Assembly (NCBI GenBank): GCA_018057705.1
Contig: JAGPDF010000010.1
Location: 1-64,000 of the forward strand
Length of the DNA stretch: 64,000 bases
DNA from: Thermoanaerobaculia bacterium
GTDB taxonomy: Bacteria; Acidobacteriota; Thermoanaerobaculia; Multivoradales; JAGPDF01
Reading direction: 5' to 3'
Part shown: piece after piece, positions 30,185-47,037 of the stretch
How the letters are laid out: the number at the start of each line of letters is the position of its first letter
Position numbering within the stretch: the first letter of the stretch is position 1
The notes under the pieces: model-generated
What the model was told of the DNA's origin: nothing
The model's database searches: none
What the model saw: the letters and a program-made list of their open reading frames with translations, nothing else
Made by a program: the position numbers and the translations under genes

Positions 30185-30193
30185 ATCGTGGAA

Positions 30194-30199
30194 ACTATA
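30194..30199 (-). promoter_or_regulatory. Putative leaderless -10 element of the gcv operon
   Basis: TATAGT (one mismatch from TATAAT) on the minus strand ends 9 bases before the gcvT ATG at 30184. The 94-base divergent gap to 30279 holds nothing else clear apart from a short CCTAC/GTAGG hairpin at about 30251-30267. Confidence 0.5.
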
Positions 30200-30278
30200 T
30201 CGCGGCGGGAATCCACCGGCAGCCTGTGATGCTGCTCACTTCGCGGAGGACCTACCCCAAAGTAGGGTTCCCGGTCTC

Positions 30279-32042
30279 ATGAACGTTCATCCGAGCCGGG
30301 AGCGTCGTCGCCGCCCTGCGCCAGCGCCATCGGCTCCGGCCGGCCGGTCGCGGCGCAGCCTCCTCCTTCCGCTTTCCGGGGACGCCTATCGGCCGGCCCG
30401 CGAGATGCGCCGCCCGGAAGGCCCGGAAGGACCCGGGGAGGAGTCCCTCACACCTCCGGCCCTGGCAGTCCTGGCGCTCACCCGGCTGGCCTTCGGCCCG
30501 ACCGCGGGCGATATCGCAGCTTTCAACGCCCTGGGCGGCAACGACCTCCAGCGGCTCACCGCCTGGGTCGATCAGCAACTCGCCCCGGCGACGCTCCCCG
30601 ACGCCGCCTGCGACGCCCGAATCGCGGCGAGCGGCTTCAGCACGCTCGGCAAGAGCCTGACGCAGCTCTTCCTCGACCATCACGTCGCCGACCCGGAGTG
30701 GTACGAGCGCATCCGCCCTGCCACCGAGACCGAGCTCGCGACCTGGACCCGTGCGGTCTATTCGAAGCGCCAGCTCTTCGAGGTCCTGGTCGATTTCTGG
30801 CACAACCACTTCAATGTCTACGCCTGGGAGTTCATCGAGGCCCCTCTCTGGGTGCACCACGATCGCGACGTCATTCGCGCCCACGCGCTGGGGAACTTCC
30901 GGCAGATGCTCGAAGCCGTGGTGAAGTCGCCGGCGATGCTCGTCTACCTCGACAACTACATCAATTTCGCCGCCGATCTCGATGGGAATCCGGTCGGGTC
31001 GAACGAGAACTTCGCCCGCGAAATGATCGAGCTCCACTGCCTTGGTGCCGAGAACTCCCACGGCAATCTGCCGCGCGAGCAGGTGCCCGGTTACCCCAAC
31101 CCCACCGGCTATTGCCAGGCGGACGTCGTGGACGTGGCGCGCGCCCTCACCGGCTGGACCTTCGCCATCGACTGGGTGCAGTGGGACTGTCCCGAAGGTC
31201 TCGACAACGACGGTCACTTCTTCTATTGCGACGAGGCGCACGATACGCTGCCGAAGCAGGTGCTGGGGACGTCGATCCCCGGCGGCGGCACTGCCGCCAG
31301 CGACGGCGCAGCGGTGCTCGACCGCCTTGCCTCCCACCCCGCCGCCGGCCGCTTCATCGCCCGCAAGCTCTGCCGCCGATTGGTGGGCGACTTCCCGCCG
31401 CAGTCGCTCGTCGACTCCGCGGGCGCGCTCTTCACCGCCCAGTGGCAGGCCCCGGACCAGATCCGCCAGGTCGTCCGCCACATCGTGCTGTCGAACGAGT
31501 TCCGCACCACCTGGGGCGAGAAGGTGAAGCGGCCGTTCGAGATCGCCGCCTCCGCCCTGCGGGCCGGTGGTGCGAACTTCCCGTTCACGACTTTCCTGGC
31601 CGACGAGGACGCGGTCAACAGCTTTCACTGGTTCTTCGAGGCCGGCGGACAGGCGCTCTTCGCCTGGCATCCGCCGAACGGCTATCCGGACGTCCGCGGC
31701 GCCTGGCAGAGCGCCAATCCGCGCGTCGCCCTCTGGCGGCTGGTGAACTGGCTCGTCGAGGCGGACCAGGACGACAACGACCGCTTCCTGAGCATCGTCG
31801 ACGCGACCCTCGCCTCGCCGGCGCGATCGGCCGAAGCGATCGTCGACTTCTGGATCGCGCGCATCTTCGGCCGGGCGCTCGCCGCCGCCGACCGGGGCGA
31901 GCTGGTCGATTTCATGGCCGCCGGGCACAATCCGACGTTCGCGCTTCCCATCCACACCAACGACTGGCCCGACTACACCCAGGACCGCCTGCGCAGCCTC
32001 GTCGGGCTGATGCTCATGTCGCCCGAATTCCTCTGGCGCTGA
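30279..32042 (+). CDS. DUF1800 family protein, copy 1
   Basis: A 587-residue protein of the DUF1800 family, whose function is unknown but whose gene is regularly followed by a DUF1501 gene, as here. After an Arg/Pro-rich N-terminal 50 residues lacking a clear signal peptide come the family features: ALTRLAFGPTAGDIAAFNALG near residue 68, an LVDFWHNHFNVYAW stretch near 170, LVYLDNYINF near 220, NENFAREMIELHCLGAEN near 240, ALTGWTF, RFIARKLCRRLVGDFPP and FEIAASALRAGG. It is clearly paralogous to the gene at 33573-35333. A DUF1501 gene follows after 25 bases. Export route is uncertain. Confidence 0.88.
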   Translation: MNVHPSRERRRRPAPAPSAPAGRSRRSLLLPLSGDAYRPAREMRRPEGPEGPGEESLTPPALAVLALTRLAFGPTAGDIAAFNALGGNDLQRLTAWVDQQLAPATLPDAACDARIAASGFSTLGKSLTQLFLDHHVADPEWYERIRPATETELATWTRAVYSKRQLFEVLVDFWHNHFNVYAWEFIEAPLWVHHDRDVIRAHALGNFRQMLEAVVKSPAMLVYLDNYINFAADLDGNPVGSNENFAREMIELHCLGAENSHGNLPREQVPGYPNPTGYCQADVVDVARALTGWTFAIDWVQWDCPEGLDNDGHFFYCDEAHDTLPKQVLGTSIPGGGTAASDGAAVLDRLASHPAAGRFIARKLCRRLVGDFPPQSLVDSAGALFTAQWQAPDQIRQVVRHIVLSNEFRTTWGEKVKRPFEIAASALRAGGANFPFTTFLADEDAVNSFHWFFEAGGQALFAWHPPNGYPDVRGAWQSANPRVALWRLVNWLVEADQDDNDRFLSIVDATLASPARSAEAIVDFWIARIFGRALAAADRGELVDFMAAGHNPTFALPIHTNDWPDYTQDRLRSLVGLMLMSPEFLWR

Positions 32043-32067
32043 CGGCGCGAGGCAAGGAGATCCAGCA

Positions 32068-33444
32068 ATGTGTTCGCCTACACGCCGGGGATTCCTGGTC
32101 GGCTGTTCCACCGCCATCGCGAGCCTCGCCGGTTCGCGCTTCAACTCGTTCGCCTTCGCCCAGGGGAGCGGCGGTGGTGGGTCGAACGACGAGATCCTCG
32201 TCGTGCTCTTCCTGCGCGGCGGCCAGGACGGGCTCAACCTCGTCGTCCCGACCGGCGGGGCCTCGAACGACCGGCAGTTCTACGAACAGGCGCGACCCAA
32301 CCTGCGCCTGCCGATCTCCGGACCCGGCGCTGCTCTCCCGCTCGGCACGCTCGGAGGGACCAGCTTCGGCCTTCACCCGGGAGCGGCGGGGCTGCACGAG
32401 CTCTTCCAGGACGGCAGGCTCGCGGTGGTCACCGCCTGCGGCATGGCGGCCAACGAGCGCAGCCACTTCGACTCGATGAACTGGATGGAGTTGGGCACCC
32501 CCGGGGTCAGCAACATCACCAACGGCTGGCTGACGCGCCACTTCCAGTCGGCGACCAATCTGCCGTCCGAGATCATCATGCCGTCGCTCGCGGTGGGTGG
32601 CACCCAGACCATCTCGCTGCTCGCGAGCTACGACACCATCAACCTCGCGAGCGTCGATTCGTTCTCCCTTTCGACCGGTCCCTGGGCCTGGCGGAGCCCG
32701 CAGCGCACGGCTCTGCGCCACCTCTACGGCGGCGGCGCGAGCTGGCTACATCAGGCAGGCCTGCAGGCCCTCGATGCGGTCGACATCGTCGAGCTCTACG
32801 CCAGCGGCGCCTACACGCCGGCGAACGGCGCCGTCTACCCGCAGACCTGGTTCGGCGAGAACCTCCAGACGATCGCGCAGATGGTGAAGCTCGACCTCGG
32901 CCTGCGCGTCGCGACGCTCGACCTGGGGGGTTGGGACACGCACGAGAACCAGGGCAATGCCGGCGGAGGAATGTACGCCGGGCTGGTCGAGGAGCTGTCG
33001 CAGGGCCTGGCCGCCCTCTATGCCGACCTCGATGGCGCCGGCGCGGCGAACTACACCCAGCGCCTGACCGTCGTCGTGATGAGCGAATTCGGCAGGCGCT
33101 TCGCCGAGAACGCCGACGCCGGCACCGACCATGGGCACGGCAACAACATGCTCGTCCTGTCGGGCAACGCCATCGGCGGACTGCACGGCACCTGGCCGGG
33201 TCTCGCCGAGGGCCAGCTGAACGACGGCGATGTCGAGGTCACGACCGACTTCCGGCGCGTCCTCTCGGAGATCCTGATTCGCCGCCTGGGCAACCCGCAC
33301 CTCGGCACGGTCTTCCCCGGCTATCAGGCCTACAGTCCGCTCGGCGTCGTCGCCGGAGTCGACTTTCCGCCGGTCGGCGCCGACCTCTTCACCGACGACT
33401 TCGAGGGCGGTGACCCCAGCCGGTGGAGCGTCGTCGCCGGCTGA
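32068..33444 (+). CDS. DUF1501 family exported protein, copy 1, with GFExG-type C-terminal tail
   Basis: A 458-residue member of the DUF1501 family (alkaline phosphatase/sulfatase-like fold; function unknown). The N-terminus has a Tat-like TRRGFLVGCSTAIASLAG signal. Family stretches include LVVLFLRGGQDGLNLVVPTG near residue 45, FGLHPGAAGLHELFQDGRLA near 110, SHFDSMNWMELG near 137, ATLDLGGWDTHENQG near 287, VVMSEFGRRFAENADAGTDHGHGNNM-like His/Asp region near 350 and TTDFRRVLSEIL near 395. The last 15 residues, LFTDDFEGGDPSRWS, are a tail also found on four other coding sequences here. Paralogue of the gene at 35345. Confidence 0.88.
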   Translation: MCSPTRRGFLVGCSTAIASLAGSRFNSFAFAQGSGGGGSNDEILVVLFLRGGQDGLNLVVPTGGASNDRQFYEQARPNLRLPISGPGAALPLGTLGGTSFGLHPGAAGLHELFQDGRLAVVTACGMAANERSHFDSMNWMELGTPGVSNITNGWLTRHFQSATNLPSEIIMPSLAVGGTQTISLLASYDTINLASVDSFSLSTGPWAWRSPQRTALRHLYGGGASWLHQAGLQALDAVDIVELYASGAYTPANGAVYPQTWFGENLQTIAQMVKLDLGLRVATLDLGGWDTHENQGNAGGGMYAGLVEELSQGLAALYADLDGAGAANYTQRLTVVVMSEFGRRFAENADAGTDHGHGNNMLVLSGNAIGGLHGTWPGLAEGQLNDGDVEVTTDFRRVLSEILIRRLGNPHLGTVFPGYQAYSPLGVVAGVDFPPVGADLFTDDFEGGDPSRWSVVAG

Positions 33445-33572
33445 ACGGCCGGCGCTCCAGCCGCGGAGGCCCATCCCGTCGGTGTGTGAATTGATTCATT
33501 CTCCGGCCGCGCCCGGGCAGATTAGCCTTGCCCTTTCCAACGGAACGTGACGAATTCGCCGGGAGAGCCCTC

Positions 33573-35333
33573 GTGCCGAACGCCAACGCCTTCCCCCGCC
33601 ATCGGCCCCGGCCCTCGCGCCGGGAGCTCCTCACCTCACTCCCCCCCCTCGAACGCCCGAGCTCCGGAAAGGTCCGACCGGCCCGGACGCGGGCACCGCT
33701 CGTCTATCCCGGCCTCGCGATCGTCGCCCTGAACCGCATGGGCTTCGGGCCGCGCCCGGGCGACGTCGCGGCCTTCAATGCTCTTGGCGCCGACGACGAC
33801 GCCCGGCTCGCAGCCTATGTCGCGCAGCAGCTCAACCCCGACCCGGTCGCGGCCAACGACACCGAGTACCACCAGCGTCGCAACGGCCTCGCCGGCTATC
33901 CGAATCCCGGTTTCACCACTCTCGGCAAGTCGCTCACCCAACTCTGGCAGGACCACCAGACCGGCGGCACGCAGCGCGGCCGCCCGGTGGAGGAGACGCG
34001 CCTCAACACCTACCTGCGCATGGTCTACAGCAAGTGGCAGCTGCGCGAGGTGCTGGCCGACTTCTGGCTGAACCACTTCAACATCTACGGCTTCGAGATG
34101 TACACCCAGGAGACGTTCGTCCACTACGACCGCGACGTCATCCGCCCCAGCATCTTCGGCAACTTCCGCACCATGCTCGAGGCCGTGACGCGCAGCACCT
34201 CGATGCTCTACTACCTCGACAACTACACCAACACGCGGAACGGCCCGAACGAGAACTGGGCGCGCGAGCTCTTCGAGCTCATGACGCTGGGCGCCGAGAA
34301 CTACTATGGCGTCGGTTCGCAGGACCAGGTCCCGGTGTGGGAGGGCGTCGTCTGGCCGGCCGGCACGGCAAGCGCCGGAGATGCGATTCCCGCCGGCTAC
34401 GTCGACAACGACGTCTACGAGACGGCGCGCGCCTTCACCGGCTGGGGCGTCTCGAGCACGCTCGGTACCTTCCTCTATTCGGCGGGCAATCACGACATCT
34501 TCCAGAAGGCCGTGCTGTCGTTCGGCCAGGTCAACATCCAGCCGAACCAGGCCGACGAAAAGGACGGTGAAGACGTCCTCACCATGCTCGCCGCCCACCC
34601 CGGGACCGGCCGGTACGTGGCGCGCAAGCTCTGCCGCCGCCTGATCTCCGACGAGCCACCGCAGGCCCTCGTCGAGGCGATCGGCGACCTCTTCACGGCG
34701 CAGTGGCAGGCCCCCGATCAGTTGAAGCAGGTCTACGAAGCGATCCTGCTGTCGGACGAGTTCAAGACCACCTGGGGCGAGAAGATCAAGCGGCCGGTCG
34801 AGTTCTCGGTGAGCGCGATGCGCGCCGCCAACGCCAACTGGAATTTCGGCTATTCGAACCAGGACCCGCTCACCGTCGAGTCGGACACCTCGAGCTTCCT
34901 CTCACGCCAGAGCAGGACCGGACAGAACCTCTTCGCCCGCGTGCCGCCCGACGGCTACGGCGACCGCGAAGAGCTCTGGTCGGGGACCAACACACGCCTG
35001 CAGTGCTGGCGCCTCGGCAGCTGGCTCATCGACCAGGACATCGACGGGTCGAGCGCGACGGACGACTTCCGGCTCGACATCCTCGGCCAGACCTACGCCG
35101 CATTTCCCGCCCTGCCCCACCAGGCGACTTCGGAGGAACTGGTCGACCTCTGGATCGGCCGGGTTTTCCGGCGCGACATCGAGCCGGAACAGCGCGACGA
35201 GCTGATCGATTTCACGGCGCAGGGCAACAGCCCGACCCTGAAGCTGAACCTCGACGCCTCGTCTTCGGTGCGGGCGCGCCTGCGCGCCCTCGTCGGCCTC
35301 ATGTTCATGACGCCCGAATTCTTTCTGAAGTAG
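33573..35333 (+). CDS. DUF1800 family protein, copy 2
   Basis: A 586-residue paralogue of the protein at 30279-32042, almost the same length. Conserved stretches: ALNRMGFGPRPGDVAAFNALG, LADFWLNHFNIYGFEM, MLYYLDNYTNT, NENWARELFELMTLGAENYY, TGWGVSS, RYVARKLCRRLISDEPPQ and WGEKIKRPVEFSVSAMRAAN. Differences lie mainly in an extra acidic loop near residue 255-290 and in the region around 440-470. The GTG at 33573 was chosen: it has a GGGAGAG ribosome binding site 6 bases upstream and gives a length matching the paralogue; a TTG at 33528 is in frame but less likely. A DUF1501 gene follows after 11 bases. The preceding 128 bases (33445-33572) contain only a TAGCCT hexamer at 33523. Confidence 0.87.
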   Translation: MPNANAFPRHRPRPSRRELLTSLPPLERPSSGKVRPARTRAPLVYPGLAIVALNRMGFGPRPGDVAAFNALGADDDARLAAYVAQQLNPDPVAANDTEYHQRRNGLAGYPNPGFTTLGKSLTQLWQDHQTGGTQRGRPVEETRLNTYLRMVYSKWQLREVLADFWLNHFNIYGFEMYTQETFVHYDRDVIRPSIFGNFRTMLEAVTRSTSMLYYLDNYTNTRNGPNENWARELFELMTLGAENYYGVGSQDQVPVWEGVVWPAGTASAGDAIPAGYVDNDVYETARAFTGWGVSSTLGTFLYSAGNHDIFQKAVLSFGQVNIQPNQADEKDGEDVLTMLAAHPGTGRYVARKLCRRLISDEPPQALVEAIGDLFTAQWQAPDQLKQVYEAILLSDEFKTTWGEKIKRPVEFSVSAMRAANANWNFGYSNQDPLTVESDTSSFLSRQSRTGQNLFARVPPDGYGDREELWSGTNTRLQCWRLGSWLIDQDIDGSSATDDFRLDILGQTYAAFPALPHQATSEELVDLWIGRVFRRDIEPEQRDELIDFTAQGNSPTLKLNLDASSSVRARLRALVGLMFMTPEFFLK

Positions 35334-35344
35334 GAGAGCCCGCC

Positions 35345-36706
35345 ATGTACCGACCCACACGCCGCGGTTTCATGATGGGCTGCTCGGCCGCGATCGCCAA
35401 CGTCGCCGCGGCCCGTTTCACCAGCCTGGTCTTCGCCGATCCGATGATCGTCGGCAACCACGACACCCTGATCGTGCTCTTCCTGCGCGGTGGCATGGAC
35501 GGGCTCTCCTTCGTCATGCCGACCGGCGGACCCGATCGCGCCCACTACGAGACCGCCCGCCCCGTGTTGAAGGTCCCGGCGGCCGGAGCCAACGCGGCGC
35601 TCCCCCTCGGGACGATGGGCGGCAACCAGTTCGGGCTGCACCCGGCAGCGACCGGCCTGCACAATCTCTTCCAGGACGGCAAGGTCGCATTCGTCCACGC
35701 CGCCGGCCTCGACACCTCCAGCCGCAGCCACTTCGACAACCAGGCGCAGATGGAGCTCGGCACGCCGGGCGACGGCGGTACGACCGACGGCTGGCTCACC
35801 CGCCACTTCCTGACCTGCCCGGGGCTGCCGGCGGACACGCCCATGGTGCAACGGATCGCGGTCTCTTCGACCATCCAGAGCGCCTGGCTCGCCGACACCA
35901 ACGTCGTTGCCTTCGCGAACCGCGACGACTTTCTCTTCAACACCGGCCCGTCGGCCTGGCGCGACGCCCAGAAGTCGTCGCTGCGCAATATCCTCGATCT
36001 GCACAGCGACGTGGACCCGCGCTACGCCCAGGGCCTGGTCTCGCTCGACGCCTCCGGCTTCATCGAGCAGAACATCCCGACGCTCTCCTCCTACGTACCG
36101 GCGAACGGCGCGGTCTACCCTTCCGGTTCTTTCGGCGATTCGCTGAAGCTCACCGCACAGCTCATCAAGCTCGACATGGGGCTGCGCGCGGCGACCCTCG
36201 ACCTCGGCGGCTGGGACACCCACAACGGCCAGGGCACCGCCGCCGACGGACAGTTCTTCTGGGAGAAGATCCAGGAGCTCTCGCAGGCGCTCGCCGCCTT
36301 CTACACCGATCTCGACGGCGCCGGCGCGAGTGCCTACGCGGGTCGCACGACGGTCGCCGTGATGTCCGAGTTCGGCCGCCGATTCCGCGAGAACAACGAT
36401 TCCGGGACCGACCACGGCCACGGCGGCGTGATCACCGTCATGGGTGGACCGGTCGTCGGCGGTCTCTATGGCAGCTGGCCGGGGCTCGCCAACGACCAGC
36501 TCTACGACGCCGCCGACCTCGACATCACCACGGATTTCCGCCGCGTGCTCTCCGAGATCGTCGTCAGCCGGCTCGAGAATCCCAACTGGCAGCAGGTCTT
36601 CCCCGGCTACGTCGGCTACTCGCCGCTGGGTCTCGTCCGGCCAATTCTGTTCAACGACGGCTTCGAGAGTGGCAACACGGCGTCCTGGAATGCCGCCGTT
36701 CCCTGA
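35345..36706 (+). CDS. DUF1501 family exported protein, copy 2, with GFExG-type C-terminal tail
   Basis: A 453-residue paralogue of the protein at 32068. The Tat-like start reads TRRGFMMGCSAAIAN. Family stretches: IVLFLRGGMDGLSFVMPTGG, FGLHPAATGLHNLFQDGKVA, SHFDNQAQMELGTPG, LDLGGWDTHNGQG, VMSEFGRRFRENN followed by GTDHGHGG, and TTDFRRVLSEIVV. It ends in the tail ILFNDGFESGNTASWN. A GGAGAG ribosome binding site precedes the ATG. Its last 17 bases overlap the start of the next secreted-protein gene. The two DUF1800-DUF1501 pairs are a tandem duplication, since pair order, orientation and lengths are the same. Confidence 0.88.
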   Translation: MYRPTRRGFMMGCSAAIANVAAARFTSLVFADPMIVGNHDTLIVLFLRGGMDGLSFVMPTGGPDRAHYETARPVLKVPAAGANAALPLGTMGGNQFGLHPAATGLHNLFQDGKVAFVHAAGLDTSSRSHFDNQAQMELGTPGDGGTTDGWLTRHFLTCPGLPADTPMVQRIAVSSTIQSAWLADTNVVAFANRDDFLFNTGPSAWRDAQKSSLRNILDLHSDVDPRYAQGLVSLDASGFIEQNIPTLSSYVPANGAVYPSGSFGDSLKLTAQLIKLDMGLRAATLDLGGWDTHNGQGTAADGQFFWEKIQELSQALAAFYTDLDGAGASAYAGRTTVAVMSEFGRRFRENNDSGTDHGHGGVITVMGGPVVGGLYGSWPGLANDQLYDAADLDITTDFRRVLSEIVVSRLENPNWQQVFPGYVGYSPLGLVRPILFNDGFESGNTASWNAAVP

Positions 36707-38087
36707 CCGGCGGCACCCGCAGGCTTTTCCGGCGCATCTCGCGACGCTCGCGCTCCTCTTGGTCGGCGCCTTCGGTACCGCCCTCGCCCAGGGCCCGACG
36801 CAGGGAGGCGCCTTGCCGGGACCTCTCCCGCTCCTGCCGGCCGACAACTGGTGGAACGTCGATGTCTCGCAGGCGCCGGTCGACCCAGCGAGCGCCGCTT
36901 TCCTCCAGTACGTCGGGGTGAACCGGGGAATGCACCCGGACTTCGGCGGGGACGCCGCCGAGGAGCCGGAGATCTACGGCATCCCCTACTCCACCGTGCC
37001 GGGAAACCAGCCGCTCGTGGCGGTCGATTTCTACTACCCCGACGAGAGCGATCCTGGAGCTCCCGGCCGGCCCGCCGGCTATCCGATCCCCGAGCAGGCG
37101 AAGACGCAACCGAGGTGGATCGAAGGCGGCTACCCCGGAGCTGCCGACCCGGGGGGCGACCGGCACCTGCTGCTCGTCGATCGCGACCACCGGCTGCTCT
37201 TCGAGCTCTACGACCTGCACTGGGACGGAGAGCGCTGGACCGGCGGCTCGGGTGCCGTCTGGCCTCTGGACACCAACCGTCGACGCCCGGAAGGCTGGAC
37301 CAGTGCCGATGCCGCCGGCCTGGCGATCCTCCCGGGACTGGTGCGTTACGACGAGGCCAATGAAGACGGTCCGATCCGGCACGCCTTCAGGGTCACCGTG
37401 CGGGCCACGAACGGCTACGTCTTCCCGGCTTCGCACGCAGCGGGAGGGACCGCGGGCGCGCTGCCGATGGGCGCCCGCCTGCGCCTCAAGGCCGCGAAGG
37501 ACCTTTCCGCCTTCGCGCCGCCGTTGCGCCGGATCTTCCAGGCGATGAAGACCTACGGGCTCATCGTCGCCGACAACGGTAGCGACCTCTACGTCTCGGG
37601 CACCTACGACACCCGCTGGGACAACGACATGCTGAATCCGGCCTTCGCCGCCCTGAAGGGCGCCGATTTCGAGGTCGTCCGCCTCGGCTGGCAGCCCGAG
37701 GGCGATCCTCCGCCGCCTCCTCCCCCGCCAGACCCCGAGCCGTGCGTCGAGAGCTCGAGCACCCTCTGTCTCAACCGGGAGCGCTTCGGCGTGCGTGTCG
37801 AGTGGACCGATTACACAGGTCACCAGGGCGCCGGCAGCGCCCATCCACTCACCACCGACTCCGGACTCTTCTGGTTCTTCAGCGAGTCGAACCTGGAGAT
37901 GCTGGTGAAGGTGATCGACGGGTGCGACTTCAATGGGCAGTTCTGGATCTACGCCGCCGCGACCACCGACGTCGCCTATACCGTCAGGGTGACGGACTCG
38001 GAGACCGGGGAAACCTGGTCGCGCAGCAACCTCCTGGGGCACGCCTCCCCCGCGTTCACCGACACCTCCGCCTTCGCCTGCCCCTGA
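36690..38087 (+). CDS. Secreted protein with NWWNxD-type domain and shared C-terminal domain
   Basis: A 465-residue exported protein with a signal peptide (about 1-34, ending ALAQ). The main domain (about 45-335) has the conserved stretches PADNWWNVDVSQAPVD, RPEGWTSADAAGLAILPG, VRYDEAN, FRVTVRATNGYVFPASH and YGLIVADNGSDLYVSGTYD; similar secreted proteins are known in several phyla, but function is unknown. A Pro-rich linker (PPPPPPPPDPEP) leads to a roughly 115-residue C-terminal domain with LCLNRERFGVRVEW, DSGLFWFF, LVKVIDGCDFN, FWIYAAATTDV and terminal FACP, the same module that ends the LamG protein at 22482-23531. The ATG at 36690 overlaps the DUF1501 stop by 17 bases. Confidence 0.82.
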   Translation: MPPFPDRRHPQAFPAHLATLALLLVGAFGTALAQGPTQGGALPGPLPLLPADNWWNVDVSQAPVDPASAAFLQYVGVNRGMHPDFGGDAAEEPEIYGIPYSTVPGNQPLVAVDFYYPDESDPGAPGRPAGYPIPEQAKTQPRWIEGGYPGAADPGGDRHLLLVDRDHRLLFELYDLHWDGERWTGGSGAVWPLDTNRRRPEGWTSADAAGLAILPGLVRYDEANEDGPIRHAFRVTVRATNGYVFPASHAAGGTAGALPMGARLRLKAAKDLSAFAPPLRRIFQAMKTYGLIVADNGSDLYVSGTYDTRWDNDMLNPAFAALKGADFEVVRLGWQPEGDPPPPPPPPDPEPCVESSSTLCLNRERFGVRVEWTDYTGHQGAGSAHPLTTDSGLFWFFSESNLEMLVKVIDGCDFNGQFWIYAAATTDVAYTVRVTDSETGETWSRSNLLGHASPAFTDTSAFACP

Positions 38088-38167
38088 GGGCATCGGCGTC
38101 GGGCCCAGCGCCGGTCGCAGGTCGAATATGATCCGCGATCCACGCAGTGCCATTCCGGAGGCCGTTG

Positions 38168-40066
38168 ATGAGCAAACCCAGTCTGCGCGAGCGTCTCGCG
38201 TACGCGTTCGACAACTCGCTGGCGCGCGGACCGATCGTGATCATCGCCTACCTGGCGCTGCTCTCGATCGCCCTGATCGTCGTGCTCGCCACGCTGGTCT
38301 GGGTGACCGGAGTCGCGCCCGAAGCCGAGAGCGGGGACAAGCCCGGCTTCGTCGGTATCGCCTGGATGGCGCTCATGCGTACGCTCGACTCCGGCACCAT
38401 GGGGGGGGACACCGGCAGCTGGTCGTTCCTGCTCGCCATGCTGGCGGTGACCTTCGGCGGCATCTTCGTCATCAGCACGTTCATCGGCACGCTGACGACC
38501 GCGATCGAGGCCAAGATGGACGCACTGCGCAAAGGCCGTTCGCGGGTGCTCGAGAGCGGGCATACGGTCGTCCTGGGCTGGTCGCCGCGCGTCTTCTCCA
38601 TCATCTCCGAGCTGGTGACGGCGAACGAAAACCAGAAGCGCGCGGCGGTGGTGATTCTGGGCGACCGCGACAAGGTCGAAATGGAGGATGAGATCCGCGA
38701 GCGGATCGGCGACACCCGGACCACGCGGGTGATCTGCCGCTCCGGCAATCCGGCGGACATGGACGATCTCGCCATCGTCAACCTTCCGGAATCGCGCAGC
38801 ATCATTCTGCTGCCGCCGGTCGGACCGGAGGCCGACACGCAGACCATCAAGGCGCTGCTCGCGATCACCAACAGCCCGAACCGGCGGCCGGAGCCGTACC
38901 ACGTGGTGACCGAGATCCGCGATCCGAAGAATCTCGCCGTGGCCACCATGGCGGCGCACGGCGAGGCCGAGCTGGTGCTGGTTCCCGACCTTCTCGCCCG
39001 GGTCACCGTGCAGACCTCCCGCCAGGCGGGCCTTTCGGTGGTCTACCAGGAGCTGCTGGATTTCGGCGGCGACGAGATCTACTTCAAGGCCGAGCCGACG
39101 CTCGCCGGGAAGCGCTTCGGGGAGATTCTCGGGCTCTACGAGGACTCCTCGATCCTCGGCCTCTGCCGGGCGGGCGGCACGATCCAGTTGAACCCGCCGA
39201 TGGACGCCGAGGTCGGCGCCGGCGACCAGGTGATCGCGATCTCCGAAGACGACGACACCGTCCGGCTGTCGCGCTCGGGACCTGCCGCGATCGATGAAGC
39301 GGCGATCGTCTTCGGCGAACCGCGCCCCCCGCAGGCCGAGAAGACGCTGATCCTGGGCTGGAACCCGATGGCGCCGCTCCTCCTGCGCGAGCTCGAGCAC
39401 TACGTCGCGGCCGGTTCGGAGGCGCGCGTCGTCGGGAGCTTCCCCGAGAGCATCGAGGCCGCCCGCGTCGCCTGCCCGCCGGCCGAGAGGCTCCGCATCA
39501 CCCTGCTCGAGGGCGACCCGACCGATCGCGCGACGCTCGACCGGCTGGATATCCCGGCCTACGACCACGTCGTCCTCATCTCCGAGGACCCCGACGACGA
39601 CGAGCGCACCGATGCCCGGACCCTGGTGACCCTGCTGCACCTTCGCGACATCCGCGAGCGCAGCGGCAGCCGCTTCTCGATCGTCTCGGAGATGCAGGAC
39701 GTCCGCAACCGGGCGCTCGCCGAGATCACCCGGGCCGACGACTTCATCATCGGCGACCAGTTGGTCAGCCTGCTGCTCACCCAGATTTCGGAGAACAAGG
39801 CGCTCAACGCGGTGTTCACCGACCTCTTCGACCCGGAGGGCGCCGAGCTCTACCTCAAGCCGGCCGAAGACTATGTCCGGCTCGATCGCGAGGTCAGCTT
39901 CGCTACCGTGGTCGAAGCGGCCCGGAGGCGGGGCGAGATCGCGATCGGCTTCCGGCAGCCGCCGGCGCCGGGCACCGGGGGTCACGGCGTCGCGACCAAC
40001 CCGGCGAAGTCGCATCGCGTTCGCTTCACCGCACGCGATTCGGTTATCGTCCTGGCAGAAAATTAA
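38168..40066 (+). CDS. CASTOR/POLLUX-like ion channel with RCK (TrkA-N) domains
   Basis: A 632-residue membrane protein. Two N-terminal hydrophobic helices (about 22-47 and 90-115) flank a pore-like segment (AWMALMRTLDSGTMGGDTG), followed by VISTFIGTLTTAIEAKMDALRKGRSRV, the linker typical of CASTOR/POLLUX/DMI1-type channels. The rest is cytoplasmic and contains two nucleotide-binding RCK-like domains (HTVVLGWSPRVFSIISELV near 138; TLILGWNPMAPLLLREL near 395). Plant homologues conduct calcium or potassium; the ion here is unknown. The ATG at 38168 has GGAGG 6-7 bases upstream, better supported than the upstream in-frame start. The DUF937 gene follows after 9 bases. Confidence 0.87.
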   Translation: MSKPSLRERLAYAFDNSLARGPIVIIAYLALLSIALIVVLATLVWVTGVAPEAESGDKPGFVGIAWMALMRTLDSGTMGGDTGSWSFLLAMLAVTFGGIFVISTFIGTLTTAIEAKMDALRKGRSRVLESGHTVVLGWSPRVFSIISELVTANENQKRAAVVILGDRDKVEMEDEIRERIGDTRTTRVICRSGNPADMDDLAIVNLPESRSIILLPPVGPEADTQTIKALLAITNSPNRRPEPYHVVTEIRDPKNLAVATMAAHGEAELVLVPDLLARVTVQTSRQAGLSVVYQELLDFGGDEIYFKAEPTLAGKRFGEILGLYEDSSILGLCRAGGTIQLNPPMDAEVGAGDQVIAISEDDDTVRLSRSGPAAIDEAAIVFGEPRPPQAEKTLILGWNPMAPLLLRELEHYVAAGSEARVVGSFPESIEAARVACPPAERLRITLLEGDPTDRATLDRLDIPAYDHVVLISEDPDDDERTDARTLVTLLHLRDIRERSGSRFSIVSEMQDVRNRALAEITRADDFIIGDQLVSLLLTQISENKALNAVFTDLFDPEGAELYLKPAEDYVRLDREVSFATVVEAARRRGEIAIGFRQPPAPGTGGHGVATNPAKSHRVRFTARDSVIVLAEN

Positions 40067-40075
40067 GGAGACCCC

Positions 40076-40834
40076 ATGTCGTCACTCTTCGACCAGCTCT
40101 CGCAGCACGTCAACGCCGACACCGTCTCGAAGATCGCCACCCAGATCGGCGCCACGCCGAGCCAGACGCAGGCGGCGGTCTCGGCTGCGATGCCGATGCT
40201 GCTCGGCGCCCTGGCCCGGAACAGCGCTACGCCGCAAGGAGCGGACGGCATCCTCGGCGCGCTCGGGCGCGACCACGACGGCAGCCTCCTCGACAATCTC
40301 GGCGGCCTGCTCGGCGGCCTCGACGGTCGCAGCGGCTCCGGCGGCGGACTCGGGGACATCGGCGGCATTCTGAGCGGGATGCTCGGCGGCGGCGCCCCGC
40401 CCGCCGGTCAGGCCGGATCGGGCGGCGGAGGTGGCGGGATGATGGACATGGGCGGAGCGATCCTTGGCCACGTCTTCGGCGGCAAGCAGGGCAACGTCGC
40501 GAGCACGCTCGGCAAGTCGACGGGACTCGAGTCCGGCCAGATCCTGCAGCTCCTCGCCATGCTCGCGCCGATCGTCATGGCGGTCCTCGGCAAGCAGAAC
40601 AAGCAGAGCGGCGGCCTCGACCAGGGCGGCCTCGCCGACATCCTCGGCGGCGCCTTTGAGCAGTCTGCCGCCAAAGCCCCTCCGAGCGTCACCCAGGGCG
40701 CGGGCGCAGGCGGCATCGGCGACCTCCTCTCCTCTGTCCTCGACGCGAACAAGGACGGGAGCGTCATGGACGACCTCATGAAGCAGGGCGGCGGCATCCT
40801 CGGCTCGCTCCTCGGGGGGCCGAAGAAGGGCTGA
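40076..40834 (+). CDS. DUF937 domain protein
   Basis: A 252-residue Gly-rich protein of the DUF937/YidB-like family, function unknown. The N-terminal part (LFDQLSQHVNADTVSKIATQ, then a QTQAAVSAAMPMLLGALARN helix) and a second similar part after residue 140 (STGLESGQILQLLAMLAPIVMAVLG) represent the paired helical units of the family. Between them are Gly/Ser-rich linkers (residues 80-125), and the C-terminus repeats the DANKDGSVMDDLMKQGGGILGSLLG pattern. There is no signal peptide. It lies 9 bases after the ion-channel gene and is probably co-transcribed with it. Confidence 0.85.
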   Translation: MSSLFDQLSQHVNADTVSKIATQIGATPSQTQAAVSAAMPMLLGALARNSATPQGADGILGALGRDHDGSLLDNLGGLLGGLDGRSGSGGGLGDIGGILSGMLGGGAPPAGQAGSGGGGGGMMDMGGAILGHVFGGKQGNVASTLGKSTGLESGQILQLLAMLAPIVMAVLGKQNKQSGGLDQGGLADILGGAFEQSAAKAPPSVTQGAGAGGIGDLLSSVLDANKDGSVMDDLMKQGGGILGSLLGGPKKG

Positions 40835-40843
40835 ACGCTCCTG

Positions 40844-40865
40844 CCCTGGTGGAAACCAACCAGGG
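40844..40865. other. Hairpin between the DUF937 and DUF4932-like genes
   Basis: CCCTGGT (40844-40850) and ACCAGGG (40859-40865) form a 7-bp stem with an 8-base loop. Only ATTT follows, so it is a weak terminator candidate or an mRNA processing/stability hairpin. Confidence 0.35.
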
Positions 40866-40876
40866 GATTTCCCGTA

Positions 40877-42409
40877 GTGCGGGGGATGAACCCCCTGCTT
40901 CTTGCTCTCGCCCTGCTAGCTGGGCCGGCTGCGGCGGCCCGGCCGCAGCCACTGCAGCCATCGCAGCCACCTGCACCACCGGCGCTCCCGGTCCTGCTCT
41001 CCGGCATCGACACGCTCACGATCCAGGATGGCGAGGAGCTCTCGGTCGGCTCCTGGCGACTGGCGCCGGAGGCCGACCCCGACATCTACGAAGCCAGACT
41101 GCTGCACGGCAGGCCGCACGCGGTGGTCTTTCGCTCCGATCAGGGCGAGATCCGCTTCGACGTCGAGGTGGGCAAGGAGTACGACTTCGTGGTCCGCTGG
41201 AAGGGGCAGGACTGTCGCACCCGGATCGTCGGCACCCGGTTCATCCCGCCGGCAGTCTTCGACGAGGCCTACCGCGCGGCCCACCGCGGCAGGGTGGAAG
41301 TGGAGATTCCCGAGGTCTATGAGCTGGTCAATGTCGCGATCGCTCTCTCGCCCACCGGCATCGCGAACAAGAACCTCGTCTTTCAGAACTCCGAGTACTA
41401 CGCCCGGCTGCGCGCTCGATTCGACCCTTACCGCGACCAACCGGTGATCGCCGCGCTCGACGCCGAGCTGGCGCGCGACGAGGGCCGGTACTTCACGCTC
41501 AAGATGAACGCCTACAGCTTCGAGTTCGACGGCGCCGGGAAGATCGTCCAGAGCCCGGTCTACGACCGCACCGGATTTGCCGGCGCGCGCGCGAACGACC
41601 TGCGTCCCTTCCTGCCGGGGCTGCAGCAGTTCGCCGACGCCAGCGGATTCCGGAGCTTCTTCCGCGAAAACCGCGCGCTCTACGAGGAGCAGGTCGCCTT
41701 CTTCCGTGAGCAGGCCGACCTTCCGGCCATGCTCTCCTGGCTCAACCGGAACTTCCCCGCCGGCGGCGGCTACGACGGCTACAAGGTCGTCTTCTCGCCG
41801 CTCGTGGCCTACAACCAGTCGGCCACCTGGCTCGAAACACCGGACTACCGGGAGCTCCAGGCGCACGTCAACTTCCCGTATCCGCAGGACCTGACGCGCA
41901 GCGGCGCGGAGAACCTGTCGCCCGCTGCGGCGCTCCTCTTCCGCGGCTGCATCGTCTTCACCGAGCTCAACCACGGGTTCATCAATCCGGAGGCGGACCG
42001 CCACGCCGCCCGCGCTGCGGCGGCAGTCTCCGACCGCGACTTCTGGGTCGACGCCGCCAAGGGAAAGAGCTACTACCCCGGCCTCGCCACCTTCAACGAG
42101 TACATGAACTGGGCGCTGGTGAGCCTGCGTTTGGTCGACCTCGCCCCGCCCGGGGAGCTCGCCGGGTTGATCGAGCGCATCGACCGGATGATGGTCGAGA
42201 GCCGCGGCTTCCGCCGCTTCCGCGAGTTCGACACCTTTCTCGTCGCCCTCTACCGCGCCCGCAAGCCCAACGAGACCGTGGCCGACCTCTACCCGCAGAT
42301 TCTCGACTGGTTCGAGCGCCAGCCGAGCGCCTCTCCTGGCGCTCCAGGAGAGCCGGCGCCCGCTACCACTTCCAGCTCGCCGCCGTCCCCGTCTCGAAGC
42401 CGTCGCTGA
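40877..42409 (+). CDS. DUF4932-like exported putative metalloprotease with an overprinted C-terminus
   Basis: A 510-residue exported protein: signal peptide (LLLALALLAGPAAAA), a short beta domain with an IDTLTIQDGEELSVGSW strand, then a helical domain. The stretch CIVFTELNHGFINPEADR near residue 360 matches the DUF4932 family active-site region, in which His-Glu-x-x-His is normal; the first His is Thr here, so catalysis is doubtful. The GTG at 40877 has an AGGGGA site 10 bases upstream; an ATG at 40886 is also possible. From about 42363 to its stop the frame reads the antisense of a GFExG-type tail (see 42363-42431), so the last 15 residues (Ser/Pro-rich) are probably not original. Confidence 0.72.
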   Translation: MRGMNPLLLALALLAGPAAAARPQPLQPSQPPAPPALPVLLSGIDTLTIQDGEELSVGSWRLAPEADPDIYEARLLHGRPHAVVFRSDQGEIRFDVEVGKEYDFVVRWKGQDCRTRIVGTRFIPPAVFDEAYRAAHRGRVEVEIPEVYELVNVAIALSPTGIANKNLVFQNSEYYARLRARFDPYRDQPVIAALDAELARDEGRYFTLKMNAYSFEFDGAGKIVQSPVYDRTGFAGARANDLRPFLPGLQQFADASGFRSFFRENRALYEEQVAFFREQADLPAMLSWLNRNFPAGGGYDGYKVVFSPLVAYNQSATWLETPDYRELQAHVNFPYPQDLTRSGAENLSPAAALLFRGCIVFTELNHGFINPEADRHAARAAAAVSDRDFWVDAAKGKSYYPGLATFNEYMNWALVSLRLVDLAPPGELAGLIERIDRMMVESRGFRRFREFDTFLVALYRARKPNETVADLYPQILDWFERQPSASPGAPGEPAPATTSSSPPSPSRSRR

Positions 42410-42431
42410 AGACTGCCGGGTTGGGTCTTCC
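42363..42431 (-). pseudogene. Orphan GFExG-type C-terminal tail (gene remnant)
   Basis: On the minus strand this encodes PNPAVFSDGFETGTAASWKW then a stop, the tail that ends the beta-helix gene at 45523. Identity at DNA level includes a 19-base exact run (42394-42412 and 45554-45572). The open frame extends upstream only to 42704, with no signal peptide or domain, and it overlaps the 3' end of the DUF4932-like gene. It is best read as the surviving 3' end of a lost secreted-protein gene. Confidence 0.6.
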
Positions 42432-42558
42432 TTCTCTCGTCGACCCTTCGTCTGGGGTCTGACCGCGTTCGCCGGAACCGAGGTCGGTGCCGGCGCCCTC
42501 GATTGGGATTCGAGCGCAGGGGGGCTCGAACTGGCATACTGATGGAGTGATTGGGTTG

Positions 42559-45501
42559 ATGCCGGAGTCCGGTGAGCGCCTCGCCGGTGGGCGGCGTCGA
42601 CTCCGACCCAGGACGTTCCGCTGCTGGTCGCTGGCGCTCGCCTGCGGGCTCGTCCTGTTGAATCCGGGAGCAGCAGGAGCGCAGGCGCCAAAGCTGCTCT
42701 TCAATTCGCCTCCCGATGCGATTCCCGGTGCCCCCTGGCGAACGTTCCAACTGACCCGGACAGGAACGCGGCTGGCCTTCGCCGACGAGCTCCGAGACGG
42801 CCTTTACTCCTACGAGCCGGAAACCGGACAGACCCACCTCCTGGTCGACCTCTCCGAAGGGCAGTCGTTCCAGAGCTTCAACCTGCTCGGAGGAGGGGAC
42901 GAGGACATCTTTGCCAGCTTCGGCTCCCTCGAATCGCGGCCACTGGCTGGAACCGATGCCACGCCGGCAGGAACACGGATGGTGCTCGAGTCCGACCTGC
43001 CGGGCGTTTCGCTCGGCCACGGTGTGGGCCCTGACGAGAAGACCCCAATACGGAACGACCACATCTTCCTCCTGGCGTTCCATCCCGGCGGTTCGAGGGC
43101 CATCTGGGCGACGGATGCGACCGCCGCCGGAACCTTTCAGGTTTCGATTCCGACCGCCGCTTCCACATCCTCCTTCTGCGACCCGACTGTGCTCGGAGAC
43201 GAGGCCCTTTTCCCGGTCGCCGCAGGCGCCGGCGCGACGGAGCTCTGGCTCAGCGACGGAACGCCTTCCGGCACCTCCTTGTCTGGGGTCGTTCCGTATG
43301 CGTTCCACTGTACCGATTCCGCCTTCACATTGCAGTCCAGGGCGGTCTATACCTGCTCTACCAGCCCTGGCGTGCGAGCGCTCTGCCTCACCGACGGCAC
43401 CGCCTCGGGCACGGAGGTGGTCGCGGTGGCGGCTTATCCCAGCTTCTCGGGGGACCTTGAGCGGGTCTACTTCCGGGGCTGGAACGGTCGAGCCTGGAAT
43501 CTCTGGCGCTCCGACGGCTCCGCGCGGGGCACCTATGAGCTCCAGGCCGCGACAAAGCTGGACCCGCCACTCGACCTCACCAACAACTCCGCGAGCGTAC
43601 CCCGCGGGCTCGTCTTCAACCTTTTTCTTTCGAACGCCCCTTCCGAGCTCTGGTTCGCTGGCTCCGACGGGACAGTTGCAGAGCGACTGGCGGTGACGTG
43701 CGACAGCAGCGCCGGATGCACCGGCCTGCCCACCCGGAGAATCTGGCGGGTCGGCGACGTCGCTCTCTTCTTCGCCTTCGACAGCCAGAGGGGTGCCTGG
43801 CTCTGGGCTACCGACGGGACGGCGCCGGGCACCGTGCCCGTTCTGGAAGTGAACGGCATTACGGTCACGAGCCACTACCCCCAGTTCGAAGCCTTCGAGG
43901 ACGGTCGATGGTACTTCCTGGGATCCTCCGCCGAACTCGGCGAAGAGCTCTATGTATCGGATGGAACGGCCGGAGGGAGTCGACGCCTGACGGAGTTCGC
44001 CAATGCGGGTGCCATCACGGGCGGCGGCTTCGGCAACCTGGAGCTAGCGATTCTCGGCGATCGGGCCTGGTTCGCCGCCGCTGAGACCGACGCTGGCCAT
44101 CAGCTCTATTCGGTCTCTCCGCACTCCGCTGGAGCCGTCCAGGAGACCCATTGGTCCCATGCCTGGAGTGGAGTGCTCGGCAGCGTGGGCGGTCGTCCCG
44201 CCCTCTTCGGCTTCGAGCGACTCTGCTATGCCGGCACTCAGGCAGGACTCTGGGCGTCGGACGGCACCCCCGCGAACACTTTCCGGATACTTCTTCCGTC
44301 CAGTTCGGACTGCGCCGGGTTTCCGATTCCGACCACAGGGGCTCCCTATTCCTGGGGCAGTGGACTGGCAGTTCCCTGGCGCGGCCAGTCCGGGCTCCAC
44401 CAGCTCTTCTGGCTCGGCTCCATCGCGCAGGATGTGCAAGAGGTCACTCAGTTCGATGACCGGGATGTCGGCAACGGGATGCAGGTCGGATCGGCGGCGG
44501 TGTATCAGGCGCAGAGGCCGGATTCGTCCTGGGAGCTCTGGGCCTCCGACACACCGCTCACCGCCCCTCGATTCATCGGTGCGTTGCCAGCGGAGACGTG
44601 GTTCACGTCGCGCTTCCAGCCCCTGCGGGAACTTGGGCTCTTCGCCGCCGCGGCAGAGGACAACGAGTGCGACGTCTTTCGCACCGACGCCACCGCCGCC
44701 GGGACCTATTCGCTCGGGTTCGGTACAGGTGCCTTCGTCTGTCCGAACATCTCCTCGTTCCATGTCACTCGGGTCGGGAACCGTGGCTTCTTCCTGATGC
44801 GAGAGCTGAGTACCGGAGGCGCGATCTGGGAAACTGGCGGAGACCTGGAGGACACCGCTCCGTTCACACCGCCCACTCTCGATGTGCTCAGTCTCCTGGA
44901 GCCGTCGCTCATGCAGGGCCAGATCGTGTTCGCCGCCGGCGAGCACGGACGACCCCGCGGCCTCTACTCCCAGCTTCTCGACACGGAATCGGCCAGACGC
45001 CTGACCGACCTGGCTCCGCTTCCGCCGCCCGAGGCGACAGGACTCGGGACCTACGCCGCTGCAACCTCCAGCCACGTCTTCATGACCGGCTACGACTCCG
45101 ATCATGGTCAGGAGCTCTGGGTATCCGATGGTAACGGTGCTTCCTTCACGTTGCTGCGCGACATCGCACCCGGAAGCCGGTCCTCTCTTCCGCAGTACCT
45201 CACCGTCGTCGACGACCTCCTGCTTTTCTCGGCGAACGACGACTCGCATGGGCGGGAGCTCTGGATCTCCGACGGCACCGAGGCCGGAACGCGAATGATC
45301 TGGGAACCGGCGCAGGGAGGCTTCTCATCAGCTCCTTCCAACCTCTCGGTGATCGGACAGGACCTGCTCTTCACTGCCTATCATCCCCGGATCGGTCGCG
45401 AGCAGTGGATCCTCCATCTCGGCACGGGGACCGACGGACTGATCTTCGATGACGACTTCGAATCCGGCACTACCGCGCAGTGGGAAGAACCACCCTATTA
45501 G
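42559..45501 (+). CDS. Large exported ELWxxDGT-repeat protein with GFExG-type tail
   Basis: A 980-residue protein with a signal peptide (CWSLALACGLVLLNPGAAGAQ, residues about 22-43). It contains about ten divergent repeats of the ELWxxDGTxxGT type (for example ELWLSDGTPSGT, LWATDGTAPGT, ELYVSDGTAGGS, GLWASDGTPANT, ELWISDGTEAGT), which usually build a beta-propeller-like or hyalin-like extracellular surface protein. It ends LIFDDDFESGTTAQWEEPPY, the shared tail. The start at 42559 places the signal peptide normally; an in-frame ATG at 42487 would add 24 residues. The gene sits between two direct repeats (42394 and 45554) and looks somewhat less G+C-rich than its neighbours. Role in adhesion or polymer binding is inference. 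Confidence 0.85.
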   Translation: MPESGERLAGGRRRLRPRTFRCWSLALACGLVLLNPGAAGAQAPKLLFNSPPDAIPGAPWRTFQLTRTGTRLAFADELRDGLYSYEPETGQTHLLVDLSEGQSFQSFNLLGGGDEDIFASFGSLESRPLAGTDATPAGTRMVLESDLPGVSLGHGVGPDEKTPIRNDHIFLLAFHPGGSRAIWATDATAAGTFQVSIPTAASTSSFCDPTVLGDEALFPVAAGAGATELWLSDGTPSGTSLSGVVPYAFHCTDSAFTLQSRAVYTCSTSPGVRALCLTDGTASGTEVVAVAAYPSFSGDLERVYFRGWNGRAWNLWRSDGSARGTYELQAATKLDPPLDLTNNSASVPRGLVFNLFLSNAPSELWFAGSDGTVAERLAVTCDSSAGCTGLPTRRIWRVGDVALFFAFDSQRGAWLWATDGTAPGTVPVLEVNGITVTSHYPQFEAFEDGRWYFLGSSAELGEELYVSDGTAGGSRRLTEFANAGAITGGGFGNLELAILGDRAWFAAAETDAGHQLYSVSPHSAGAVQETHWSHAWSGVLGSVGGRPALFGFERLCYAGTQAGLWASDGTPANTFRILLPSSSDCAGFPIPTTGAPYSWGSGLAVPWRGQSGLHQLFWLGSIAQDVQEVTQFDDRDVGNGMQVGSAAVYQAQRPDSSWELWASDTPLTAPRFIGALPAETWFTSRFQPLRELGLFAAAAEDNECDVFRTDATAAGTYSLGFGTGAFVCPNISSFHVTRVGNRGFFLMRELSTGGAIWETGGDLEDTAPFTPPTLDVLSLLEPSLMQGQIVFAAGEHGRPRGLYSQLLDTESARRLTDLAPLPPPEATGLGTYAAATSSHVFMTGYDSDHGQELWVSDGNGASFTLLRDIAPGSRSSLPQYLTVVDDLLLFSANDDSHGRELWISDGTEAGTRMIWEPAQGGFSSAPSNLSVIGQDLLFTAYHPRIGREQWILHLGTGTDGLIFDDDFESGTTAQWEEPPY

Positions 45502-45522
45502 CAGGCGCAGCGCTTCCCGGCT

Positions 45523-47037
45523 CTACCAGCTCCAGACTCCGGTCGTCCCCGCTTCGAAGCCGTCGCTGAAGAGCGCGCCGCGCTCGAAGGCGCCGAGGTC
45601 GGTTTCGGGGCCGACGAGGCGGGCGCCGTGGGCGAGGTCGTAGGGGCCCATGCCGGAGAAGGTGGTGTCGCCGGCGTCCTCCGCCGGCGAGCCGGCGGCG
45701 AGAGTGTAGTCGCCGCCCGCGGCGTTCGTGAACAGCGGGTCGATGCCAACGAGGTTCGCCGGGAAGATCGCCGGAGATCCGATTGTCCCGATGTCCGTAC
45801 CGTTGCCGAAGGCGATCGAGTTGACCAGGCTGATCGAGCCCGTGCCGACCTCGTCGAGCTCGAGCCCGGTCCCGGTGTGGTCCGTGACGGTGAGCTGCGA
45901 GAGCACGGCCACACCCTCCGTCGCCGCCGACACCAACATGCCGCCTTCCCCCATGGCTACGAGTGTGTCCCGCATCGAGACGAAGGCCGAGCTCTGGGTC
46001 GAGAACTGCGCCTGCTCGACCGCCACACCCGCCGTGTTGTCGACCACGCGGAGGCGGTCGATCGTGCCCTGCGTCGAGCCGAAGAGAAGCATCGCCAGGC
46101 CGGTTCCGCCCATGGGATTCGCCGCCTGAACCATGTTGCCGCGAACCTCCACGTCCTCGATGCGGAGGGTGGCGCCCTGGAAGTGGCCGTTGAGAGCGCC
46201 GGCGATCGCGAAGCCGTTCGCGCCGGCGGACGCCGCTGAATTGCCGAGGAATCGCGTCCGTTCCAGGGTGACCTTCGAACCGCTGCCCTCGGAATTGAGG
46301 TCGGCGCCGCCGGCGCGAGCGAAATCGGACGGCAGCGTGGCCTCGGAATGATTGTCGAGGAAGAGAGTGTCGGAGATCCGTGTCTCCGCTCCGGAGACCG
46401 CGGTGGCCCACAGTGCGCCGCCCAGGCAGGCATCGGAGTTGTCGGGTCGCTGCGCGCGATTCTGTTCGAAAACCGTGTCCTCGATGATCAGGCTGCGCGA
46501 AGCGCCGCTCGCCGCCCAGCCGATCGCGCCGCCGCGGCGGGCAACGTTGGCGAAGAAGCGGCTCCGGCGCACGGTGAGCGAGGCCTCGATCACCCGCACA
46601 CCCGCGCCGAGCGGCAGGACGGTGCCGAGATCGCGGCCGTCGCGGATCTCGAGGTCCTCGAGCGTCAGGTGGCCGCCCGCCTGCAGGTCGAAGACGCGAT
46701 GGGTCGTGCCGCCCGAGAGCACGGCCGTCGGCGGACTGGCCGCCGGCCCGCGCACGGTGAGGTCGGCGCAGCCGGAGGCATCGAGCACGCCGAGCGGCAG
46801 CAGGTAGATGCCCGCTCCCAAGACGATCGTGTCCGACCCGACCGCCGAGCCTGCCGGGCAGGCGTCGACCGCAGCATCGGTCACCGCCGCCGCGAGTGCC
46901 TCACGGAGGGTGCAGTTGCCGTTGCCGGTGAAGTCGTCGGCAACAGTCGCGATCGCATAGTCGGTCGCGACTGCGGGAGCGACCCAGCTCAGAAACAGGC
47001 AGAAGTGAAGAAGACCGCGGCAGAGATCCCGGTACAT
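45523..47037 (-). CDS. Secreted right-handed beta-helix protein with CSLREA-like start and GFExG-type tail
   Basis: A 504-residue exported protein. The signal peptide (about 1-24) is followed by the CSLREA-type segment NGNCTLREALAAAV near residue 40 and then by a long right-handed parallel beta-helix (LTLEDLEIRDGRDLG, LTVRRSRFFANVARRGGAI, LIIEDTVFEQNRA, GLELDEVGTGSISLVNSIAF), ending in the usual LGAFERG segment. The C-terminus is ALFSDGFEAGTTGVWSW, the shared tail. It is convergent with the ELWxxDGT gene. The 116-base gap 47038-47153 upstream shows a G/C-rich stem region but nothing assignable. Confidence 0.86.
   Translation of the reverse strand: MYRDLCRGLLHFCLFLSWVAPAVATDYAIATVADDFTGNGNCTLREALAAAVTDAAVDACPAGSAVGSDTIVLGAGIYLLPLGVLDASGCADLTVRGPAASPPTAVLSGGTTHRVFDLQAGGHLTLEDLEIRDGRDLGTVLPLGAGVRVIEASLTVRRSRFFANVARRGGAIGWAASGASRSLIIEDTVFEQNRAQRPDNSDACLGGALWATAVSGAETRISDTLFLDNHSEATLPSDFARAGGADLNSEGSGSKVTLERTRFLGNSAASAGANGFAIAGALNGHFQGATLRIEDVEVRGNMVQAANPMGGTGLAMLLFGSTQGTIDRLRVVDNTAGVAVEQAQFSTQSSAFVSMRDTLVAMGEGGMLVSAATEGVAVLSQLTVTDHTGTGLELDEVGTGSISLVNSIAFGNGTDIGTIGSPAIFPANLVGIDPLFTNAAGGDYTLAAGSPAEDAGDTTFSGMGPYDLAHGARLVGPETDLGAFERGALFSDGFEAGTTGVWSW

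Follow-up and report, generated by a model that had tools for sequence, protein, structure and literature searches.

The window, by which we mean the whole 64-kb stretch of DNA analysed here, encodes secreted proteins of different families that end in one short tail. This tail is real and undescribed, a tag confined to particular lineages that marks the ends of exported proteins. It lies outside every known sorting-signal family tested and is not tripartite, and the families that carry it bear it where their relatives have known sorting signals. From these sequence comparisons, we put the chance that the tail serves for sorting or attachment at slightly better than even.

The first-pass annotation had reported five copies of the tail in the window, and all five are present, in frame, with a stop codon after each (Table 1). 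The matches lie at 33388 (FTDDFEGGDPSRW-SVVAG), 36650 (FNDGFESGNTASW-NAAVP) and 45445 (FDDDFESGTTAQW-EEPPY) on the forward strand and at 45570 (FSDGFEAGTTGVW-SW) and 42410 (FSDGFETGTAASW-KW) on the reverse strand, each string running up to its stop. A relaxed motif applied to all other frames of the window gave zero further matches. The carriers had been described as unrelated secreted proteins. The two DUF1501 proteins are paralogues with 54% identity. Counted by family, the window therefore has three independent carriers among its four tailed proteins, and to that extent the description stands. The start of the ELWxxDGT-repeat protein is uncertain, an in-frame ATG at 42559 fitting a signal peptide. 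In the choice-of-anchor Q protein the anchor-Q domain spans residues 443-486 and the tail follows directly at residues 488-504. The solitary copy comprises only the ~20-residue tail; its ORF runs antisense to the adjacent genes, lacks a signal peptide and overlaps the 3' end of the forward-strand ORF 40877-42409.

Table 1. Tailed genes and tail copies in the window, and phage contigs carrying the EGHP family.
Feature	Position	Strand	Evidence
DUF1501 protein 1, tailed, twin-arginine (TRRGFLVG) leader	32068..33444	+	ORF; PF07394 E=1.2e-25; RR motif
Tail DLFTDDFEGGDPSRWSVVAG, then TGA (DUF1501 protein 1)	33382..33441	+	
DUF1501 protein 2, tailed, twin-arginine (TRRGFMMG) leader	35345..36706	+	ORF; PF07394 E=1.8e-27
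Tail ILFNDGFESGNTASWNAAVP, then TGA (DUF1501 protein 2)	36644..36703	+	
ELWxxDGT-repeat protein, tailed	42487..45501	+	TIGR04534 E=5.6e-61; signal peptide
Tail LIFDDDFESGTTAQWEEPPY, then TAG (ELWxxDGT-repeat protein)	45439..45498	+	
CSLREA / beta-helix / choice-of-anchor Q protein	45523..47037	-	TIGR04214 E=1e-5; NF041518 24.0 bits (slightly below the 25-bit cut-off)
Tail ALFSDGFEAGTTGVWSW, then TAG (CSLREA / choice-of-anchor Q protein)	45526..45576	-	
Solitary tail remnant NPAVFSDGFETGTAASWKW and TAG, no protein body	42363..42422	-	
EGHP-family contigs	L282:10897-11319; L237; L249; L238; L228; L314; L267; L222; L215		

The DUF1501 genes belong to two tandem pairs (30156-36706), each made up of a gene that we take to be DUF1800-like followed by the DUF1501 gene, and only the DUF1501 members are tailed. 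Some secreted proteins of the window lack the tail. One of these (36444-38087, forward strand) has in its place a C-terminal domain of ~110 residues (37740-38084, ...FWFF...VIKVLDGC...AFACP, then stop). The same domain closes choice-of-anchor Q proteins in two other genomes (G176 and G238), making it a second recurrent terminal domain.

The genome-wide motif search that the first-pass annotation had called for uncovered far more copies than it had noted, most of them C-terminal. Across 5.08 Mb in 177 contigs, the core pattern GAYGRYTTYGARNNNGGN (D-[DG]-F-E-x-G) matched 101 times (50+51), against 0+0 for the reversed control, and the full motif matched 80 times, again against 0. About 1.0 Mb around the core matches was retrieved, recovering 100 of them. 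The W stands at the correct distance in 93/100; some of the other seven copies are read in non-coding frames. By position, the 93 complete copies divide into 78 at the very C-terminus, 12 at the mature N-terminus, where the F falls 4-26 residues past the predicted signal-peptide cleavage site, and three that are truly internal. These counts speak against equal occurrence inside proteins, which had been named as grounds for dropping the idea; extreme C-terminal placement is the rule but is not strict, given the 12 copies just past a signal peptide. No ORF of this genome has two tails. In a second genome, G309, 59 of 60 tails were C-terminal, one was mature-N-terminal and none was internal.

The consensus is x-[LI]-F-x-D-[GD]-F-E-[ST]-G-x-[TS]-x-x-W-S-[AS]-x-[VA]-P, about 20 residues with three conserved aromatic positions. 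The stop codon comes exactly 16 residues past the D in 45 of the 78 C-terminal copies, and 37 of these 45 end in Pro, as do 48 of the 59 C-terminal tails of G309. Several N-terminal copies keep the WS...P end as well (WSATFP, WSAVVP, WSMTVP), which indicates that the unit is independent of a free carboxyl end.

Tailed proteins are predominantly exported. Of the 63 tailed proteins whose 5' end is intact, 59 have a signal-peptide-like start by a permissive home-made score; among 353 control ORFs the number is 196 (Fisher p = 7e-10). This result goes against a tail borne by non-exported proteins, the other finding that was to have counted against the proposal. The two DUF1501 proteins have twin-arginine leaders (TRRGF) and the remaining tailed proteins mostly Sec-like ones; with both Tat-type and Sec-type leaders represented, the tag would most simply act after the inner membrane. 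The carriers include propellers (FG-GAP, delta-60, kelch, PD40), beta-helices, choice-of-anchor Q, ELWxxDGT and DUF1501 proteins, and lyases, together with M36, S8 and M28 peptidases, PHA depolymerases, galactose oxidase-like proteins and others. Among them are homologues of rhombosortase-, myxosortase- and T9SS-dependent M36 peptidases, LapA and PelZ, the M36 families being named by NCBI after the sorting systems used elsewhere. Homologues of one enzyme tagged at the N-terminus in one case and at the C-terminus in another were absent among the retrieved proteins. Choice-of-anchor Q domains in tail-rich genomes are usually followed by the tail within a few residues. In the tail-less genome G042, a relative in the same class, a choice-of-anchor Q protein (L359) ends in ...IPTLDPFALALLAAILAFFGIAVTKK, an IPTL-CTERM-like helix and basic end, and in tail-less G176 such proteins end plainly or in another domain. 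Nothing else argues as strongly for a role in sorting as this replacement of an IPTL-CTERM-like signal by the tail.

The distribution of the tail is all-or-none, with tens of HMM matches in tail-rich lineages, which make up most families of the order and part of f9, background levels in their sisters and a maximum of ~125 copies per genome. Across the 297 phylum genomes searched with the full motif, four members of the order had 80, 65, 58 and 33 copies and a further one had 2, while all eleven g3 genomes had 0 and counts elsewhere were approximately 0. A profile search of 120 genomes of the class found tails abundant in f1, f2, f4, f82, f85 and most of f5, as well as in part of f83, two genera of f3 and several genera of f9, with background in f3 g3, f6, f7, f8, f10, f12, f13 and some f9 genera. 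Named matches are mostly Thermoanaerobaculia or Acidobacteriota MAGs, and the named tail-rich genomes are all MAGs; P_S1_bin.14, labelled Deltaproteobacteria, has 100 copies. Broad occurrence was rejected, as none of the 369 genomes in the class to which a Kangiella MAG belongs (presumably Gammaproteobacteria) was tail-rich, even with the pattern loosened to F-x-DGFE. The tail occurs in some lineages of one class and is absent from their sisters; going by the named matches, that class, and with it the source of the window, is probably Thermoanaerobaculia. The tail-less g3 genomes G089, G108, G117, G126, G135 and G184 are also missing exosortase, choice-of-anchor Q proteins and a PilQ-type secretin that is present in relatives of their order.

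In several respects the tail resembles known sorting signals. GlyGly-CTERM, recognized by rhombosortase, and MYXO-CTERM, recognized by myxosortase, are C-terminal homology regions found many times per genome on unrelated signal-peptide proteins in a lineage-patchy manner (PMC3237569, PMC11980579). The tail shares these traits, down to M36 peptidases among its carriers, and has the short C-terminal homology on unrelated signal-peptide proteins that marks tripartite CTERM signals in general (LPXTG, PEP-CTERM, GlyGly-CTERM, MYXO-CTERM). Those signals, however, consist of a motif, a membrane helix and a basic cluster, whereas the tail has neither of the latter two, is acidic and also occurs at mature N-termini. 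Among the 78 C-terminal copies, there was no membrane helix in or after the tail, a hydrophobic window occurred in 6/78 and only upstream, and a C-terminal basic cluster in 0/78, the last 20 residues having a mean net charge of -2.3; lacking helix and basic cluster, the tail falls outside the tripartite CTERM signals. The C-terminal domains of T9SS substrates (TIGR04183) are likewise non-membrane signals on exported proteins of diverse families, but they form a 72-position domain model that is missing in nearly all tail-rich genomes tested. Searches with the isolated tail gave no match among NCBIfam models at E<=10, nothing above cut-off in Pfam and only a chance match in a PDB profile search, and a literature text search for the motif letters returned nothing relevant. 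Two AlphaFold models had low confidence over the tail and were uninformative there.

Co-occurrence with one secretion or processing gene had been suggested as a check, and no such gene proved tied to the tail when exosortase, T9SS and T2SS were examined. It is quite improbable that a known machine, be it exosortase, T9SS or T2SS with a linear signal, reads the tail as a variant of its substrate signal. Exosortase (PF09721) occurs in most tail-rich genomes, yet tail-rich genomes such as G387 and G394, and those of f83, lack it and many tail-less ones have it, and it was rejected as the machine. T9SS was rejected as well, with 0 TIGR04183 matches in G000 and stray matches in 4/40 genomes. As for T2SS, such systems accept both Sec and Tat cargo, and G000 has two secretins, one in a PilMNOPQ-like operon and one in a GspE/GspF T2SS-like operon, both assigned from gene order and not by profile. 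A loss of T2SS in tail-less g3 was rejected, since the secretin type missing there is PilMNOPQ-like and the T2SS-type secretin is retained. With T2SS-type secretin matches in these genomes too, and the operon seemingly occurring with or without tails, T2SS is compatible with the tail but not diagnostic of it.

The tail is conserved as protein. Nucleotide identity among copies is 0.580, close to the 0.566 expected from residues and codon use, and a mobile DNA element was rejected because synonymous identity is near expectation. In G000, two diverged propeller paralogues 2.2 kb apart on contig C10 (80307 and 82524; L086) are near-identical in DNA along the ~70-nt tail, stop codon included, and nowhere else. 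The pair is a snapshot of tail conversion and shows that tails can be copied. In the paralogue at 80307, a TAG interrupts the frame ~20 codons upstream of the tail. The string F-x-DGFESG-x4-W also begins ~200-residue LamG/CBM-like domains in Chloroflexi, Actinomycetota, Armatimonadota and Acanthopleuribacter, and in the Pfam comparison only CBM_4_9 profile positions 3-19 resembled the tail (E=0.1). The tail thus resembles the first strand of CBM_4_9 and LamG-like jelly rolls, and probably arose from the start of such a domain. Those, however, are complete jelly-roll domains, while tailed chains mostly stop 0-10 residues past the W and have their own WSxxVP end. That the tail is merely what is left of a lost carbohydrate-binding or LamG-like domain, retained by chance, is very hard to credit and was rejected: the constant stop spacing and WSxxVP end recur on tens of proteins per genome and were replicated in G309, and a decaying domain would not retain such features.

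Two further explanations need no sorting step. The tail could serve permanently as a peptide ligand, or as a donated beta-strand, docking into an extracellular scaffold or matrix protein in the manner of a dockerin or strand donor, and so builds an extracellular assembly. Dockerin modules are short tags of exported proteins, usable at either end; no sequence relation between them and the tail was seen, and no cohesin was identified. A ligand could sit at either terminus, as the tail does, the retained Pro and WS of N-terminal copies suit it, and its partner could be a jelly-roll domain minus the first strand. Against it, no receptor domain was identified, and most C-terminal copies stop at or near a fixed Pro end that a pure ligand would not need; we regard it as unlikely, if the most serious of the rivals. 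Less probable again is a cap for folding or stability: the tail would form a small hairpin that closes off the chain end or shields it from proteases, with no partner at all. The compact unit with its conserved aromatic residues would fit, and Pro-ended C-termini resist carboxypeptidases. But one sequence is found on propellers, beta-helices, peptidases, lyases and DUF1501 proteins, which need different caps, and it is missing from same-family relatives in sister lineages.

Sorting or anchoring, which the first-pass annotation had proposed alongside secretion, remains best supported, in that the tail is terminal, borne by exported proteins, patchy and a replacement for known signals; a strictly C-terminal position, a tripartite or T9SS architecture and a tied processing gene were not borne out. 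Weighing against it are the failure to find a partner, the copies away from the C-terminus and the untailed secreted proteins of the window. In such a sorting scheme, proteins would exit the cytoplasm via Sec or Tat, and the exposed tag would then be recognized by one dedicated periplasmic or outer-membrane partner. This putative partner would place its cargo outside or on the cell, in the way that GlyGly-CTERM and MYXO-CTERM proteins come to lie on the surface.

Phages may draw on the same route. IMG/VR contigs contain about 20 C-terminal tails on small ORFs, many with signal peptides. The EGHP family, composed of a signal peptide, often a Thr-Pro linker, an EGHP domain and the tail, is found on at least nine phage contigs (Table 1), and a tailed propeller family recurs on L265 (972-2546), L278 (83-1309), L280 and L292. 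Phage-type genes beside tails include tape-measure (L278), primase (L226) and fibre-like (L267) genes, and L215 has an endolysin- or pyrophosphohydrolase-like gene. The EGHP protein had no match among isolated phage records. Judging from these contigs, the host-type tail is also used by phages of such bacteria, on their predicted secreted proteins. Tentatively, and with more doubt than confidence, we propose that an either-end tag of ~20 residues from a jelly-roll first strand defines an undescribed sorting or attachment system of one bacterial class, with tens to >100 clients per genome, and that phages tag proteins which they secrete so that these arrive at the host surface, for example in superinfection exclusion.

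If the sorting reading is right, the tail would be the address label on a good many exported proteins in a mostly uncultured class, which we take to be Thermoanaerobaculia. As a sorting signal it would depart from the tripartite rule and be able to act at either protein end. Many proteins that now lack annotation could be assigned a location, and a comparison of tailed with tail-less sister genera would allow a search for the partner. The tail would also point out phage proteins that travel by the delivery route of the host.
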